Origin: an uncultured Victivallaceae bacterium
Lineage (GTDB): Bacteria; Verrucomicrobiota; Lentisphaeria; Victivallales; Victivallaceae
NCBI GenBank assembly: GCA_944389925.1
Contig: CALXOD010000051.1
Coordinates: 62,001 to 126,000 of the forward strand
Reading direction: 5' to 3'
DNA length: 64,000 bases
Shown piece after piece: positions 5,983-64,000 of this stretch. Made by a program: the position numbers and the translations under genes. The notes beneath the pieces were generated by a model that did no database searches, was not told the origin of the DNA, and saw only the letters and a program-made list of their open reading frames with translations. How positions within the stretch are numbered: position 1 is the stretch's first letter; every line of letters starts with the position of its first letter.

Positions 5983-7293
5983 TTACAAATACGCCCCGAA
6001 TGCGCGCAGCTTCTCCCGTCCCGCCACGCCGTCCAATTTCGTCGGCATCGTCCCCGCCGTCACTGCCATCGCCGCGGCCATCCCCGCCGCTTGTCCAATC
6101 GAACAGACCGGCGGCATCACCCGCATGGAACTGTGCAGCGCATGATCCACGGAAATACAACGGCTTCCGATCAGGAGATTGTCGCATCCTTCCGCTACAA
6201 TGCAGCCATAGGGAATTTCGTACCAGTCGTCCGGCGGCAACCGACGGATCATCGTACCGGAACCCTTCGGATTGTGAATGTCCACGTCATAACTCACCCG
6301 GGCAATCGCATCCGGAAATTTCTCCGCCCGGTCAAACGCCGTTACCGTCAAATAACGTCGTCCCCGAATCCGACGCGATTCCCGCACCCCGATATGATGC
6401 GCGATCGAATGTACCGCGGCCCGTTCGAACCCCGGTACATATTCCCGCAGAAAGGCCAGGTATTCCCGCAGCTGCCGTCGCGCGTCGATTTCCGCCTCCG
6501 ACAACTCCCGCGCGTTCAACGCGCTCTTCAACACAACCCGGGTAGTGTTAAAATGCATCACATCCGGCTCCAGATCCTCAAACATCAATACGTTTTCCCG
6601 CAGACACCGGATTTTTCCATCCGCCTTTGCCCGGTCGTACAGGGCGTTGACCTCCGCCCGCGACGGCATCCGGGACCGATCCACTCCGCTTAATTTGAAA
6701 CACAGCGTCATCGGCTGGCAGTTTCCCTCTTCGTCACCATATTCAAAAGGCACTCCCGCCAATGCCGCCAGATCCCCGTCACCGGTTCCATCCACAAATA
6801 CTTTGCCGCGCACTGCGCTCAACCCGTCTTTACCGGACAGAATGACTTCGGTAAGCCGTTCTTCCGTGCGTCGGACGTCAAACAATGTATGATGGTACAT
6901 CATCCGTACACCGGCAGCAAGGCAAAGGTCTTCCACCGCCAGCATGGCCAGATTTTTGGAAATCATACGTTCGCTGCTGTTTTCCACACGATTTTCTGCG
7001 TGCGGCGCCACTTTGCCCGGCAGATACCGGCGCATGGCGTCAATCCACTCCCCGTAAAGCGGTCGATCCAGCGGCAGACCATGAGAATGACTGCACATGA
7101 ACGGAGTCACCTCCCCCACCGACGCCATCCCACCGGCAAAACCATAACGCTCGATCAATACGACGTCCGCCCCGTTGCGCGCAGCTGTCACAGCCGCAGC
7201 GAATCCTCCCGGCCCGGCGCCACACACCACCACATCCGCTTCCGCCGTCACGGGAACTTCCCGCTTCAGCTCGTAAGGAATCGACTCACTCAT
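5983..7293 (-). CDS. FAD-dependent oxidoreductase coupled to glgB
   Basis: A complete 436-residue flavoprotein related to the one at the left window edge. It has VCGAGPGGFAAAVTAARNGA near residues 21-40, the family motif FVDGTGDGDLAALAG, and a C-terminal LLIGSRCISVDHALHSS stretch with conserved small residues near the flavin. The ATG at 7293 follows AGGAGG with a rather long 12-base gap and overlaps the glgB stop by 8 bases, so translation is probably coupled. Being the last gene of a glycogen operon is unexpected, and no link to glycogen chemistry is known to me. It lacks a signal peptide. The substrate is not predictable. Confidence 0.85.
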   Translation of the reverse strand: MSESIPYELKREVPVTAEADVVVCGAGPGGFAAAVTAARNGADVVLIERYGFAGGMASVGEVTPFMCSHSHGLPLDRPLYGEWIDAMRRYLPGKVAPHAENRVENSSERMISKNLAMLAVEDLCLAAGVRMMYHHTLFDVRRTEERLTEVILSGKDGLSAVRGKVFVDGTGDGDLAALAGVPFEYGDEEGNCQPMTLCFKLSGVDRSRMPSRAEVNALYDRAKADGKIRCLRENVLMFEDLEPDVMHFNTTRVVLKSALNARELSEAEIDARRQLREYLAFLREYVPGFERAAVHSIAHHIGVRESRRIRGRRYLTVTAFDRAEKFPDAIARVSYDVDIHNPKGSGTMIRRLPPDDWYEIPYGCIVAEGCDNLLIGSRCISVDHALHSSMRVMPPVCSIGQAAGMAAAMAVTAGTMPTKLDGVAGREKLRAFGAYL

Positions 7294-9340
7294 TTTTCCC
7301 GTTTGCCTCCTGTTGGACGCACGTCTTCTGCAACACCAACGCAGTTCGACAGGGCAAATACAACCGCACCGCCTGGTGGGACCTGCCCTGCCCGTCCGGC
7401 ACCGCGGAAGTCCCATAGGTCATCGCGCAGTCAATCCGGTCAAAACCGCCGAAAGCCCCGGCATCACTGCTCAAAACAATCCGATAGTTCCCGGGCGGAA
7501 ACTCCAATTCACAATCAGCAAAAGAATCCGTCGGATGAAAATTAAATACGAAAAAATATCCCGCCCGCTCAAAAGCTAGAATTTTGCGCCCCTCATCACA
7601 AACCATCCGTTGCGGCGCACAGTCGTAGAAATCCCCCTTCCCCCGCAGCAGCGCCAGCATCGCCCGGTCAAACGCCTCCAGCTGTCCGTAACGCAGCGTT
7701 TCGTCCTCCGCCAGAGACCACTGCCGTCGGGCGTAGGCATACGACCACCCGTTCCCTTCCCGCGGGAAATCAATCCACTCCGGATGTCCGAATTCGTTCC
7801 CCATGAAATTCAAATAGCCATGCCCCGCCGTCGCCGCCGTCGCCAGGCGCGTCATCTTATGCAGCGCCACCGCCCGATCCACCCGGCCATCGCCGGAATC
7901 ACGGCGCATGGCATCGTACATCGCCGCCCCCGCCAGACGGAAAATCGCCGTCTGACCGCCAACAATGGCCTGATCATGACATTCCACATAGCTGACCGTT
8001 CGCTCATCCGGGCGCCGATTGGTCAATTCGTAGTACATATACCCCATGTTCCACGCCTCGTCCGGCTGATCGAACAGCTTGAACCACATATCGGTCACGC
8101 CCATCGCCATACGGTAATCAAACCCCACGCCCCCCTCCCGAAGCGGTACGGCCAATCCGGGCATGCCGCTGACGTCCTCCGCCACCGTCATGGCATCGGA
8201 GCGCACGGCATGAATCACCTCGTTTGCCAAAGAAAGATACGTCAATGCCTCTTCATCCACCTCATCCCCGAAATAATCAGCATACCCGGCAAAAGCCCGC
8301 CCCAATCCGTGGTGCCGGTACAGCATACTGGTCACGCCATCGAACCGGTACCCATCCACCCGATATTCGTCCAGCCAGAAACGGCAGTTGGAAAGCAGAA
8401 AATGCAACACTTCCGTCTTTCCGTAATCGAAGCAAAGCGAATCCCACGCCCGGTGCTCCCCCCGCTCCCCGGCGTGAAAATAAGTGCTGCGTTCGCCATC
8501 GAATCGCCCCAGTCCTTCCACCTCGTTACGTACCGCGTGGGAATGCACCAGATCCATAATCACCCGCAACCCCAGCCCGTGTGCCGCATCCACCAGTTCC
8601 CGGAAATCATCCGGCGTTCCGAAACGTCCTGCTATGGAAAAAAAGTTGGCGACATGATACCCAAACGAACCGTAATACGGATGCCCCATGATTGCCATCA
8701 ACTGTACCGTATTATAACCGGACCGGGCAATGCGAGGAAGCACCTTTTCCCGGTATTCGCGAAACGTCCCGACTCCGGCCCGCTCCTGGGCCATGCCGAC
8801 ATGCGACTCGTAAATCAACGGCGCCGGAAACGACGCCGGTGACTCATAACGGAACCGGTACGGCTGTTCCGGTCGCCAGACCCGCGCAGAAAAAATGCCG
8901 CTCTGTTCGTCCTGCACCACATAACGCGCATAACTCGGCAGCCGTTCCCCCCTTCCCCCCGGCCACTCCATCAACAGCCGGTAATGCATCCCATGCCATA
9001 ACCGTTCCGCACTCAGTCGAATCTCCCACTCGCCCCGATTATTCAACCGACGCAGTGCAAAGTCCGGCAATGCCTTCCATCCGGACATCTCGCCGATCAG
9101 CGTAATCGCCTCGGCATGGGGTGCCCACTCTCGGAACACCCACTCCCCGTCCCGGAAATGTAATCCGTAATATTCATGTCCGGAAGCAAATTCCGCCAGC
9201 GTCTCCGGCCCCCCGCGCAACAGCCGCCTTCGAACGGCTGCCACCGCCAGACGGCGACGTTCCAGTTCGCCGGCATAAGGTGCCAGATATGGGTCCCGTC
9301 CAAAAGGTTCCGGCCGATTGTCGCGTGTCGGAAATTTCAT
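7286..9340 (-). CDS. glgB: 1,4-alpha-glucan branching enzyme, eukaryotic-type GH13
   Basis: This enzyme (684 residues) makes the alpha-1,6 branches of glycogen. An N-terminal CBM48 region (FREWAPHAEAITLIGEMSGW) precedes the GH13 barrel. The barrel has GSFGYHVANFFSIAGRFG, DGYRFDGVTSM with the nucleophile at about Asp334, VAEDVSGMP with the acid/base at about Glu388, and VECHDQAIVGGQT with the third acid at about Asp456. The DGVTSM and HDQA signatures resemble plant and animal branching enzymes more than the E. coli type. The ATG at 9340 is preferred because GAGGAG lies just upstream; a GTG at 9352 overlapping the glgA stop is the alternative. It is translated tightly with glgA and the FAD gene. 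Confidence 0.93.
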   Translation of the reverse strand: MKFPTRDNRPEPFGRDPYLAPYAGELERRRLAVAAVRRRLLRGGPETLAEFASGHEYYGLHFRDGEWVFREWAPHAEAITLIGEMSGWKALPDFALRRLNNRGEWEIRLSAERLWHGMHYRLLMEWPGGRGERLPSYARYVVQDEQSGIFSARVWRPEQPYRFRYESPASFPAPLIYESHVGMAQERAGVGTFREYREKVLPRIARSGYNTVQLMAIMGHPYYGSFGYHVANFFSIAGRFGTPDDFRELVDAAHGLGLRVIMDLVHSHAVRNEVEGLGRFDGERSTYFHAGERGEHRAWDSLCFDYGKTEVLHFLLSNCRFWLDEYRVDGYRFDGVTSMLYRHHGLGRAFAGYADYFGDEVDEEALTYLSLANEVIHAVRSDAMTVAEDVSGMPGLAVPLREGGVGFDYRMAMGVTDMWFKLFDQPDEAWNMGYMYYELTNRRPDERTVSYVECHDQAIVGGQTAIFRLAGAAMYDAMRRDSGDGRVDRAVALHKMTRLATAATAGHGYLNFMGNEFGHPEWIDFPREGNGWSYAYARRQWSLAEDETLRYGQLEAFDRAMLALLRGKGDFYDCAPQRMVCDEGRKILAFERAGYFFVFNFHPTDSFADCELEFPPGNYRIVLSSDAGAFGGFDRIDCAMTYGTSAVPDGQGRSHQAVRLYLPCRTALVLQKTCVQQEANGKNE

Positions 9341-14079: not shown

Positions 14080-15111
14080 CTAACACACATCCAACATGAC
14101 GGAACTCCCGTAATTGCTCAGGGTTCCGCAAAGGGAAAGGTTCCGGGCCCGGGACTCGGGAGAATGAATGCGTCGCAGCAATTCCTCCATCGCCAGCCGC
14201 CCCAGCTCACGCCAGTCGAACGTGACGGTGGGAAATACCGGATAATCCGGATTGATCTGGTGCTTTCCATCCGCTGACAGTACCGGAAAATCCTGTTCCA
14301 ATCGTCGCCCGGTTCTTTCGCAATAAGCACAGGAGGCATAATTGAACCAATCGTCAGAAGTAAAAAAATACCCGCATCCCGGTTGGAAATCATAATTAGC
14401 CGGGGAAATCACATCCACAAATTCCGCCCGGCCCCCCAGATCATTCCAGGCTTGAAAAAACAACCGTCCCCGCTGCCGGTAAATCGGCTTGGGACTGGAA
14501 AAAAGCACCACTCGGTTCACGCCGCGGTTAAGAAAATAGTCCACCGCCTTCTTCGCCGTATCATACAAATCGGCATTGACCGTTGACAAACGCCCTCCAT
14601 AGGAGTTGAGCATCAGCATTCCCACGGCCGGGCATGCGGATTCGAAATCCGCCAGATACCAGTCATACGCACTCAGCAGCAACATTCCGTCGCATTGGCG
14701 GCTGGCTTCTCTGAAAAAATCCGTTGAAACAAACCCGCAATGCCGATCCACCACCGACAATTCAAATCCCGCCGGTTCACCGACATCCCGGGCCCCGAGC
14801 AACGCATGATACATCATGCCACCGCCTGCCGGATTGGCTGACGTCTCCATGAAAACGAAAATCTGCCGCCCACCGTCATTGCGCCGGAGCGGACTGCGGC
14901 GGACAAAGAACCCGTGATTGGGCTTCTGCTCCAGCACACCGTTCTCACACAGCCGTTCGAATGCCCGGTAGGTTGTACCGTAGCTTAACTTGAACTTCGC
15001 AGCAAACCGTCGGACGGAAGGCAACACTTCGCCCGGCGAATATTCCCCGGCCAGAATGCGCGATTCTATATAATCCAGCAACCTGGTCGTTGATATCGGA
15101 CTGCGCCCCAC
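14080..15111 (-). CDS. GntR-type regulator with LacI-like sensor domain (paralogue 1)
   Basis: A 343-residue DNA-binding protein. Residues 1-75 form a GntR winged helix (ILAGEYSPGEVLPSVRRFAA, then LSYGTTYRAFERLCENGVLE). The rest resembles a periplasmic-binding-protein sensor of the LacI/AraR kind: STVNADLYDT, NRVVLFSSPKPIYRQRG, GYFFTSDDWF, and a final FPTVTFDWRELGRLAMEEL. Two close paralogues lie at 21172-22176 and 61926-62969. It starts at a GTG at 15111, with GAGGGG 12 bases upstream. It is the last gene of cassette A, downstream of the jelly-roll protein, so it may be co-transcribed with its targets. The ligand is unknown, probably a sugar. Confidence 0.82.
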   Translation of the reverse strand: MGRSPISTTRLLDYIESRILAGEYSPGEVLPSVRRFAAKFKLSYGTTYRAFERLCENGVLEQKPNHGFFVRRSPLRRNDGGRQIFVFMETSANPAGGGMMYHALLGARDVGEPAGFELSVVDRHCGFVSTDFFREASRQCDGMLLLSAYDWYLADFESACPAVGMLMLNSYGGRLSTVNADLYDTAKKAVDYFLNRGVNRVVLFSSPKPIYRQRGRLFFQAWNDLGGRAEFVDVISPANYDFQPGCGYFFTSDDWFNYASCAYCERTGRRLEQDFPVLSADGKHQINPDYPVFPTVTFDWRELGRLAMEELLRRIHSPESRARNLSLCGTLSNYGSSVMLDVC

Positions 15112-21148: not shown

Positions 21149-21171
21149 TTTTGCTCCAAAAAAACGGAAGA

Positions 21172-22176
21172 TCAAGGCATAATCAGTTTACCGCAAAGAC
21201 TTTGGCTTCTTCCGGAAGACTCTGGATCATTCAAACGGCGGTATAACTCTTCTAATGCCGCCCGGCCGACTTCGCACCAGTCGAGGGCAATGGTGGGAAA
21301 CCGATGATACTCCGGATTAATCAGCCGTTTCCCATCGACCCCGAGGACGAGATGATGCTCGGACAGCGGCACGCCGTTCCGTGCCTTGTACCATTCGGAA
21401 ACCTGCTGCAACATCTGATCGGAAGTGAAAAAATATCCCACACCGGCCTCAAAATTCAATCGTTCTTCCGGCATTCCGGTAATGAGCTCCACTTTTCCCC
21501 CCACAGCTCGGACTTCGTCGCAATAGCGTTGGGCAATCGCCATGAAAATCGGTCGGATACTGGTATACACCACATGCCGCTTGACCACCGCCCGGCCGAA
21601 AAAGTCAAAAGCCTGCATCACCGTATCGTAAATATCGATATTCACCGTGGATACCTGTCCGTTGTAGGCGCGCAGCATCAGAATGCCCGCTGCCGGACAG
21701 GGCAGCTGCATCGACCACATTTTCCAATCGTAACTGCCGATGAAAATCAATCCCGCCACACTGGCGGCCATCTCTCTCACCAGATCCTCGGTCAGCCGGT
21801 CACAATGCACATAGAAAATCTTCAAGGAAATGTTGTGCTCCGCCGCAGCGGAACGGATCCCCAGCAGTGCATGATAACAGAGAAAACCGGAGTTGATCTT
21901 CTCATTGCTCACCTCCAGCACCACACCAACCCGGATGCCGAAATCATCGGCGGCTGGCGGAGCTTTCACAAAAAAACCGTCCCCGAGACGTTTCTCCAGC
22001 CAGCCTTCCGTGCACAGCCGTTCCATCGTCCGGTAAGCGGTCCCATAGCTGAGATCGAACCGTCCTGCCAGGCGTCGTACCGAGGGCAGCAGCTCTCCCG
22101 CCCGAAAAGTTCCGGCCAGAATCCGGGTCTCCAGATATTGAACCAGACGATCCGAATCAGCTTTGCGGCGTCCCAT
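21172..22176 (-). CDS. GntR-type regulator with LacI-like sensor domain (paralogue 2)
   Basis: A 334-residue paralogue of the regulators at 14080 and 61926. The winged helix has TFRAGELLPSVRRLAGRF, LSYGTAYRTMERLCTEGWLE and GDGFFVK. The sensor part keeps the family landmarks: YHALLGIRSA, STVNIDIYDT, GYFFTSDQML, VLGVDGKRLINPEY and FPTIALDWCEVGRAALEEL, ending SLCGKL. The ATG at 22176 overlaps the end of the DUF349 gene by 20 bases, so translation is probably coupled. It lies directly upstream of cassette A, and the phased GGATC array begins 24 bases past its stop codon. I infer that it, or paralogue 1, binds this array. Confidence 0.84.
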   Translation of the reverse strand: MGRRKADSDRLVQYLETRILAGTFRAGELLPSVRRLAGRFDLSYGTAYRTMERLCTEGWLEKRLGDGFFVKAPPAADDFGIRVGVVLEVSNEKINSGFLCYHALLGIRSAAAEHNISLKIFYVHCDRLTEDLVREMAASVAGLIFIGSYDWKMWSMQLPCPAAGILMLRAYNGQVSTVNIDIYDTVMQAFDFFGRAVVKRHVVYTSIRPIFMAIAQRYCDEVRAVGGKVELITGMPEERLNFEAGVGYFFTSDQMLQQVSEWYKARNGVPLSEHHLVLGVDGKRLINPEYHRFPTIALDWCEVGRAALEELYRRLNDPESSGRSQSLCGKLIMP

Positions 22177-61925: not shown

Positions 61926-62969
61926 ATGGGACAAATCTCTCCGTTTGCCACAGGCCTGATACATTACGTTGAATCCCGTATTATTTCAGGCGAGTATCCG
62001 ATCGGCAGCAAACTGCCTTCTATCCGCCGTCTGGCTGCGAAATTCCACTTGAGTTTTGGTACGGCATACCGTGCCATTCACACCTTGCAGGAACGCGGCC
62101 TGATTGAACAACGCGGCACAGCAGGGCTCTTCGTAAAATCCCATCGCTTGATCGCAGGAGGCAATGCCGGAGTCTTCACGGTATTGATCGGCCCCGCGCT
62201 GCTGCAAACCACCGGACTTTTCCATGCCGCCTATCTGGGGGTGGAAAAAGCGGTCATGCGCCATCATTACCAGCTGCAGGTCCATTATGTGGCAATCGAC
62301 AAACTCACGCCGGAAAAACTCCGCCAGACAGCGGTGGAATCAGACGGGCTCCTGCTGCTGTGTGAATACGATCAGTATCTGCGGGAATTCCCGGTACTGC
62401 CCTGCCCGGTCGTGGCCCTGCTCTCGGCTAACTCCTGGAACGGACTGATTTCCACCGTGAACATCGATGCGGACGATGCGGCCTGTACTGCCGCGAAATA
62501 TTTCCGGGAAGCCCGCTCCTGGCTGCGGGAAGTCAAGGTTTTTTCCAGCCCCAAGCCGGTTTACGTCGCCCGGGCGCTGGCCTTCGAAAGCCGGTGGCGG
62601 CATCTGGGCGGGCGGTGCGAAGTCCGCATCGGTTATCCGGATGAAAATCAGACTTACCGGGAGGACTGCGGTTATTACTTCACCTCTGACCAATGGCTGC
62701 AGAATGCCTCGGCTGACTTTTTCCGGATCCATCAGGTGGAGCCGGCGCAGAAATACGCCATGCTCGGCGTAGACGGCAAACAGTTTCTTGATCCTGATTT
62801 TTTCCATTTTCCCACCATTGCGGCGGACTGGCCGCAAATGGGCGAAATCATGGTCAACGAACTGATCCGCCGCCGGAATGAACCGGAGCTGGGGGCCCGC
62901 AATATCAGTGTCTGCGGCAAACTGCGTTTGCCAAACACCCTTGAATCAGCCTCTCCTGAATCAGCTTAA
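61926..62969 (+). CDS. GntR-type regulator with LacI-like sensor domain (paralogue 3, cassette C)
   Basis: A 347-residue paralogue of the regulators at 14080 and 21172. The winged helix has ISGEYPIGSKLPSIRRLAAKF, LSFGTAYRAIHTLQERGLIE and GTAGLFVK. The sensor part keeps YLGVEKAVMRH, STVNIDADDAAC, VKVFSSPKPVYVARA, CGYYFTSDQWL, MLGVDGKQFLDPDF and FPTIAADWPQMGEIMVNEL, with the family ending ISVCGKL. The ATG at 61926 has AGGA 11 bases upstream. The pseudopilin gene follows after 184 bases that hold the phased GGATCA array and a promoter, so this regulator is the natural candidate to act there. The ligand is unknown. Confidence 0.85.
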   Translation: MGQISPFATGLIHYVESRIISGEYPIGSKLPSIRRLAAKFHLSFGTAYRAIHTLQERGLIEQRGTAGLFVKSHRLIAGGNAGVFTVLIGPALLQTTGLFHAAYLGVEKAVMRHHYQLQVHYVAIDKLTPEKLRQTAVESDGLLLLCEYDQYLREFPVLPCPVVALLSANSWNGLISTVNIDADDAACTAAKYFREARSWLREVKVFSSPKPVYVARALAFESRWRHLGGRCEVRIGYPDENQTYREDCGYYFTSDQWLQNASADFFRIHQVEPAQKYAMLGVDGKQFLDPDFFHFPTIAADWPQMGEIMVNELIRRRNEPELGARNISVCGKLRLPNTLESASPESA

Positions 62970-63026: not shown

Positions 63027-63052
63027 GGATCAATCTGAATCACCTTGGATCA
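63027..63052 (+). repeat. Three GGATCA/GAATCA direct repeats at exactly 10-bp steps, candidate operator of cassette C
   Basis: GGATCA at 63027, GAATCA at 63037 and GGATCA at 63047 are on one face of the helix. The last copy ends 30 bp before the -35 box at 63083, the same distance (within 1 bp) as in the cassette A array on the minus strand at 21102-21148. Confidence 0.6.
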
Positions 63053-63082
63053 GATTCCCCTCCGTTTTCATCTGCAGGAGTC

Positions 63083-63111
63083 TTGTGTGCCGGGATTTTC
63101 TTTTCTATAAT
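63083..63111 (+). promoter_or_regulatory. Promoter of the cassette C pseudopilin
   Basis: TTGTGT (63083-63088) and a perfect TATAAT (63106-63111) are 17 bp apart; the predicted start near 63118 leaves a leader of about 36 bases with CAGGAG before the ATG at 63154. The non-consensus -35 fits a promoter that needs an activator. Confidence 0.65.
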
Positions 63112-63153
63112 TGAAATGGAACCGGAAATCCCCCACTAACAACAGGAGAAACC

Positions 63154-63894
63154 ATGATGAAACGGTCCCCTTTCACACTGATTGAACTGCTGGTCGTTAT
63201 TGCGATCATCGCCATTCTGGCCGGCATGCTGCTGCCCGCACTCAACAATGCCCGGGAAAAGGCCAAAGCGATCAGTTGTGCTAACAATCTCAGGCAGATC
63301 GGCTTTTCTCTGATACAATACACCATGGCCAATGATGAATATGTCTGCTGGGGATTCAGCGGCAAGCTGCCGAATGGACTGACTGGAAATTTTCACGCTT
63401 TTTTATATCCCTATCTTGGCGGCGGCTCCTATCCGACCGACCGAATCACTGAAAAAAAGCCATTCTATTTCGCTCCATTTATCTGCCCGACGCAGCGTTC
63501 CCTTCGATATTACACCAATGACTATGCCGTTTCCAATTACGGGTACAATGCGCGTGGCGTAGATGCCGGCGGCAGGGTGTTCTTCGGTTATTCCACAACT
63601 TACCGATCCAATAAAATCAGTAAATTGAAAATGCCTACAAAGATGTTTGCATTCGCAGATGGCCGTCTTAATATCAGTCGTTCAACCACCGTCAATTCGG
63701 CAACAGACTGGAACGGAGGTGGGGTACCGATTTCGGACAGTCCCACGGATGTCGCAGAACTCCGGCACAGCGGAAAAATTAATGCCGTGTTTTTTGATGC
63801 CCATGTGGAATCCCGCACGGTATACGAAAGACCCTGCAGTTCAATCGTGACCAATGATATGAATCTGCTAATGCGTGGACAGTTACTTTACTGA
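63154..63894 (+). CDS. Prepilin-like secreted protein (cassette C)
   Basis: A 246-residue pseudopilin. Residues 7-35 form the prepilin helix ([19 protein letters not shown]) followed by [19 protein letters not shown]. The residue before the cleavage site is Pro. The late motif is [17 protein letters not shown], an H-X9-D-Ala variant of H-X9-DG. The globular part has many Tyr and Asn residues. The ATG at 63154 (or the next codon) has CAGGAG 5 bases upstream. It is the first gene after a phased repeat array and promoter. The next gene of the cassette would lie beyond the window; the last 106 bases show nothing coding. Confidence 0.85.
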
Positions 63895-64000
63895 CTTAGC
63901 CCAGTCAGACAGCTGGTCATAACATTTTTTACATTTTTCCGAAAGCCCTTTAAAAAAATATTGAAAATATTCGGATCCGGCTTCATTTCGAGATTTTATT

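Follow-up and report, generated by a model that had tools for sequence, protein, structure and literature searches.

Helically phased direct repeats between a GntR-LacI regulator gene and a pseudopilin gene of an uncultured Victivallaceae bacterium: a putative tandem operator

Background

Three near-identical hexamers follow each other head to tail between the gene of a GntR-type regulator and that of a pseudopilin in a 64,000-nucleotide stretch of DNA from an uncultured Victivallaceae bacterium (contig CALXOD010000051.1; the whole stretch is hereafter called the window). This arrangement raises the question of whether the repeats form an operator, which protein would bind them, and whether binding would activate or repress the adjoining promoter.

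Results

The repeats, read directly on the forward strand, are GGATCA (63027-63032), GAATCA (63037-63042) and GGATCA (63047-63052), with an exact spacing of 10 bp. Each opens a 10-bp unit, in the order GGATCAATCT (63027-63036), GAATCACCTT (63037-63046) and GGATCAGATT (63047-63056), and the whole putative operator (63027-63056) consists of three copies of GRATCAnnYT. A gap of 30 bp (63053-63082) separates the last GRATCA from the -35 hexamer TTGTGT (63083-63088), which is followed at a distance of 17 bp by the -10 hexamer TATAAT (63106-63111), both on the forward strand. The sequence-only reading had described the repeats, their 10-bp steps and their distance to this promoter in the same terms, and had placed them between the two genes; direct reading agrees exactly, the regulator gene occupying 61926-62969 and the pseudopilin gene 63154-63894 of the same strand.

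The presumed target gene encodes a DUF1559-type pseudopilin of 246 aa (PF07596 and PF07963; TIGR02532, with an H-X9-DG C-terminal motif). The next forward-strand ORF, which starts at 63961 and extends past the window end at 64000, encodes 1474 aa with Laminin_G_3 and FG-GAP matches (L168:1162-5586) and probably belongs to the same operon. An imperfect inverted repeat, GGGATTTTC / GGAAATCCC, flanks the -10 (63092-63132) and could, judging from sequence inspection and comparison with the ortholog described below, be a second operator.

By itself the hexamer GGATCA is about as frequent in the window as expected (52 occurrences vs 46), in contrast to the spaced pair GRATCA-N4-GRATCA, which occurs twice, both times in the array, vs 0.09 expected. 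Pattern searches of the whole 2.8-Mb genome yielded five such pairs, two of them in the array, and none for a control pattern; the other three lie inside genes, as judged from their surroundings. Across 61 genomes the exact triple was found only in the window and in one congener, at the orthologous locus (G002:C77), and the scan of genome contigs for related loci likewise returned the G002 locus only. The triple is thus a single occurrence in its own genome, and we dropped the idea of using it as a genome-wide regulon marker since a second site is absent there.

This congener, an uncultured Lentisphaeria bacterium, has a regulator 92% identical to that of the window (ortholog L031) and the same regulator-pseudopilin gene order. 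The 30-bp array is 90% identical between the two (27/30), whereas its flanks reach only 51-62% (25/49 before the array, 16/26 between the array and the -35). Two of the three differences are A/G swaps at the second base of a repeat: the first repeat is conserved, the second reads GGATCA and the third GAATCA in the ortholog, so all three copies there are still GRATCA. The -10 and the bases that follow it are similarly conserved (63106-63132, 25/27, 93%), and the -35 agrees at four of six positions (TTGTGT vs TTGTCC).

The regulator (61926-62969, forward, 347 aa) carries an N-terminal GntR winged-helix domain (PF00392, residues 12-70, E 3.5e-11, 43 bits vs a cut-off of 27) and, apart from overlapping helix-turn-helix models, no other Pfam match, the C-terminal part having none. 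The AlphaFold model (mean pLDDT 85.6), in which the first helix begins at residue 6, matches LacI-family regulators in nearly all of its top 50 hits in the PDB, with E-values down to 1.7e-11. By its predicted structure the protein combines a GntR winged helix with a LacI-like sensor fold, as in the AraR subfamily, where the LacI-like assignment is one of fold only. Its recognition-helix region reads LSFGTAYRA.

Full-length matches to this GntR-LacI family number 28 in its own genome, 26 in G001 and 32 in G002, and in nine own-genome members a pseudopilin gene starts within about 260 bp downstream. We scanned the 230 bp upstream of every family member (in the case of the window regulator and its ortholog, the intergenic DNA downstream) for RATCA pairs on the same strand at a step of 8-12 bp. 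Such pairs were found at L001, L005, L006, L007, L009, L010, L016, L017, L032, L079 and their orthologs; all other family members compared lack them. The recognition helix of every array-bearing member contains S-Y or S-F (or C-Y); with ortholog groups made by hand, 10 of 17 groups with an S-Y/F helix carry RATCA pairs vs none of the 28 whose helices differ (Fisher p = 6e-6). Of the seven array-less S-Y/F groups, at least five (L002, L003, L004, L092, L130) start, by eye, directly behind another coding sequence and appear to belong to operons without a promoter of their own. The step varies among the paralogues from 8 to 12 bp (8, 9, 10, 11 or 12) and is not always 10 bp; repeats at a lag of 9-11 bp are more numerous in the array-bearing groups than in shuffled sequences (9 vs 1.6). 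As a weaker trend, SYS-type groups (L007, L016) have mostly AATCA and SYG-type groups mostly GATCA. The phased direct-repeat element put forward from the sequence is therefore real, conserved, and tied to the type of regulator through its recognition helix.

The regulator's own gene has no array upstream, so the regulator is not autogenous here, unlike its sisters. Its two closest paralogues, L002 and L003, also lie in the window, on the reverse strand at 14119-15099 and 21169-22158 (39% and 36% identity), and a RATCA array is absent within about 1.5 kb of both, except for one weak pair in L003. In L005 (G000:C35:33897-34871) the match contains an in-frame TAA, for which reason the proteins were aligned without it; the RATCA sites upstream of L005 are for the most part retained in L112.

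The distance from the end of the last RATCA to the -35, with promoters picked by a fixed score, is 30 bp in the window and its ortholog, 29 bp in the L005, L006, L009 and L079 groups, 29-30 bp in the L007 group and 32 bp in the L016 group. Deviating arrangements are found in the L017 group (repeats at 27, 18 and 6 bp), in the L010 group (about 90 bp upstream) and in L032, where the gap is 36 bp and a site at 29 bp is lacking. Six of the ten scored groups thus fall at 29-30 bp, and a count of six in any 2-bp bin was never reached in 20,000 dinucleotide shuffles, a figure that somewhat overstates the surprise because the word RATCA was chosen after looking; the loci in other genera offer the better test. 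The sequence-only reading had named conserved arrays at about this distance from the -35, beside paralogues and pseudopilin genes, as support for its proposal, and the comparison gives a positive result. L005, L006, L007 and L079 carry a further RATCA shortly after the -10, which looks repressive, and the window promoter has none.

In another genus (G026), four 10-bp units, GGATCAGATT TGATTATATT GGATCAGTGT GGATCAGTTT, lie in unrelated intergenic sequence that separates a divergent GntR gene from a regulator 54% identical to that of the window, the last repeat ending 29 bp from TTGCGT, the -35 of the divergent gene. A later profile search added five loci with the helix SYGTxRRG or SYGTxQRG, which were searched with a widened word, G[AG][ACT]TC[AG], set after the other-genus sequences had been seen. 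Three regulators of other genera with the helix SYGTxRRG have two units each: GGCTCA/GGTTCA at 40/29 bp from the -35 in L138, GAATCA/GGCTCA at 49/39 bp in L139 and GGATCG/GGCTCA at 49/39 bp in L141. In L156 a 10-bp tandem runs in the other direction, and L140 shows none.

In other clades of the family the direct repeats are built from different words. Those of 6-7 bp at a lag of 9-11 bp exceed the number in shuffled sequences (for 6-mers 13 vs 4.0; 0 of 300 shuffles), and in L018, L019, L022, L023, L024 and their orthologs repeats at 10-11 bp lie just after the -10. The conserved elements at this position are CTAACAGATGCTAACAGAT in L023/L102, GGACACTTTGGGACA in L022/L101/L125 (one base off in L077), ACAGTTTGAAACAGTTT in L019/L095/L120 and an 11-bp-step pair of ATGTGTTTG in L018/L094. 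These sequence patterns suggest that direct-repeat operators may be general in the GntR-LacI protein type, with the words differing.

A side observation concerns the G026 locus (L170, G026:C3:40000-52000, about 6860-9135), where the matches to the divergent GntR gene fall in two reading frames (L078, L079). A 512-aa ORF there seems to link the C-terminal portion of that gene with the N-terminus of a pseudopilin; a frameshift, an assembly error or a fusion would each account for this.

Discussion

We regard it as very likely that the array at 63027-63056 is the operator of the adjacent GntR-LacI regulator, bound head to tail. Each 10-bp unit would then hold a single winged-helix domain, so that the domains follow one another along one side of the helix, possibly in a cooperative manner, with the recognition helix reading GRATCA and the LacI-like C-terminal domain sensing a small, sugar-like ligand. 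The bound complex would lie within reach of RNA polymerase, some 66-92 bp before the probable start of transcription, at a position where upstream regulators commonly touch the enzyme, and would most likely activate the pseudopilin-LamG/FG-GAP operon. Contact with polymerase predicts precisely such a geometry, i.e., a constant distance to the -35 across intervening DNA that cannot be aligned. A fixed, phased distance upstream of the -35, as in sites of Class I type, is seen at 29-30 bp in most scored groups and at 39 bp in two other-genus loci.

As to the sign of regulation, we infer that the regulator probably activates the pseudopilin promoter, a preference held less firmly than that for the operator itself; it stems from the poor -35 of the window promoter and from the position of its sole array, upstream. 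The sequence-only reading had likewise taken a weak -35 combined with a perfect -10 as the mark of an activatable promoter. This does not hold as a general rule, and we have dropped it as such: the -35s of array-bearing sister promoters span TTGTGT to TTGACA, and arrays also precede consensus promoters (TTGACA-17-TATAAT in L141, TTGACA in L007).

The same protein could also act through the same operator as a repressor, inhibiting RNA polymerase by contact from its upstream position until a sugar ligand relieves it, an alternative of lower but appreciable probability. GalR can inhibit polymerase in this way, and repression is the role usually given to GntR-LacI chimaeras of the AraR type. A number of sister promoters come close to consensus (L141, L007, L009), further RATCA sites follow the -10 in four groups, and in paralogues of other clades the direct repeats adjoin the start site. 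The window promoter itself speaks rather for activation: it has no RATCA after the -10, its poor -35 is not conserved, and an array situated only upstream does not occlude it.

The remaining explanations dispute the array or its binder. The array contains an imperfect inverted repeat, AATCTGA (63032-63038) and TCAGATT (63050-63056), which the sequence-only reading had not mentioned, so that the functional site might be AATCTGA-N11-TCAGATT, occupied by one symmetric dimer, with the direct repeats incidental. Operators of GntR (PMC4494728) and LacI proteins are usually palindromes, and the arms are perfect in the window. We nevertheless consider this improbable, and the inverted repeat as weak evidence for a palindromic operator, because perfect 7-bp arms at this spacing are near chance frequency in the window (5 vs 3.9 expected) and the match is partly lost in the ortholog (inner arms 6/7; the 51-bp palindrome falls from 16/25 to 14/25), where all three GRATCA copies are kept; the sister groups, too, conserve same-strand repetition at a fixed distance. 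That a different regulator binds the array is slightly less probable still. The lack of an array at the adjacent regulator's own gene would fit it, but among the family members compared arrays stand only beside an S-Y/F-type helix, and the genome's remaining pair matches are read as genic. Chance similarity without function is hardly credible: each repeat is only 6 bp long and GGATCA as a word shows no enrichment in the window, yet the footprint in the ortholog, the fixed distance and the recurrence in other genera all contradict it.

A direct-repeat operator in a GntR protein has precedents. The repeats of NanR have a step of about 8 bp. In Escherichia coli this repressor occupies a (GGTATA)3 operator cooperatively, for which it needs a 32-residue N-terminal extension (PMC8012715). 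NanR resembles the window regulator in its GntR-type winged helix, and the window array likewise consists of three direct hexamers (63027-63052). However, in NanR the operator follows the polymerase-binding site (PMC8012715), whereas the window array precedes the -35 by 30 bp; the C-terminal domain is of FadR type in NanR and LacI-like here, and the window regulator lacks the extension, its GntR domain starting near residue 12. Direct repeats are also bound by FarR (TGTATTAWTT) and NagQ (TGGTATT) of the HutC subfamily and by the MocR type (PMC4494728). The FarR unit, like ours, is 10 bp long, but FarR and NagQ have a HutC-type C-terminal domain and sites of other sequence, and no fixed-distance array across paralogues is reported for them in PMC4494728. 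The view that GntR proteins usually bind a single palindrome, from which the sequence-only reading had argued, agrees with PMC4494728, but NanR, FarR, NagQ and the MocR type are exceptions with direct repeats (PMC4494728, PMC8012715).

In domain composition the closest relatives are the proteins of the AraR subfamily, which join a GntR winged helix to a GalR/LacI sensor (PMC4494728). L-arabinose is the effector that marks this subfamily. The window regulator has this architecture, by fold, and may be called AraR-like in that respect, but not AraR. Known AraR operators are palindromes, whereas the window has tandem direct repeats and a weak inverted repeat. PhoB/OmpR-type boxes and E. coli XylR provide examples of activating sites that lie head to tail before the -35, with a spacing of one or two helical turns. 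The likeness lies in the arrangement of the sites; the DNA-binding families are unrelated and no homology is claimed. Our literature search returned no described operator for the GntR-LacI regulators of this lineage and nothing relevant on a Lentisphaerae GntR operator or a GntR tandem-repeat activator. Direct repeats are already known in a few GntR proteins; what appears to be new is their lineage-wide, helix-correlated, fixed-geometry form in GntR-LacI chimaeras.

A more general scheme, which we advance tentatively as falling a little short of an even chance, is that the GntR-LacI regulators of the present Lentisphaeria family bind head-to-tail units of 9-11 bp whose word is set by the recognition helix. 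SYG would go with GATCA, SYS with AATCA, and other helices with words such as CTAACAGAT or GGACA; the words predicted for individual paralogues are CTAACAGAT for L023, GGACA for L022 and TTTGAATGA for L024. The S-Y/F clade would bind at a fixed polymerase-contact position and the other clades on the start site, so that sister proteins would activate or repress cassettes of pseudopilins and surface proteins.

A tandem operator at a fixed promoter distance would allow regulator-target pairs to be read from genomes of uncultured Lentisphaeria, and the set of paralogues offers a natural test of how recognition-helix residues choose DNA words. At the same time, it would tie a probable sugar-sensing regulator to operons of pseudopilins and surface proteins. 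In the window's own 2.8-Mb genome (G000), a query with intergenic and pseudopilin-start DNA gave about 100 first-look candidates, which together with the 28 GntR-LacI paralogues amount to a large repertoire of regulators and pseudopilins.
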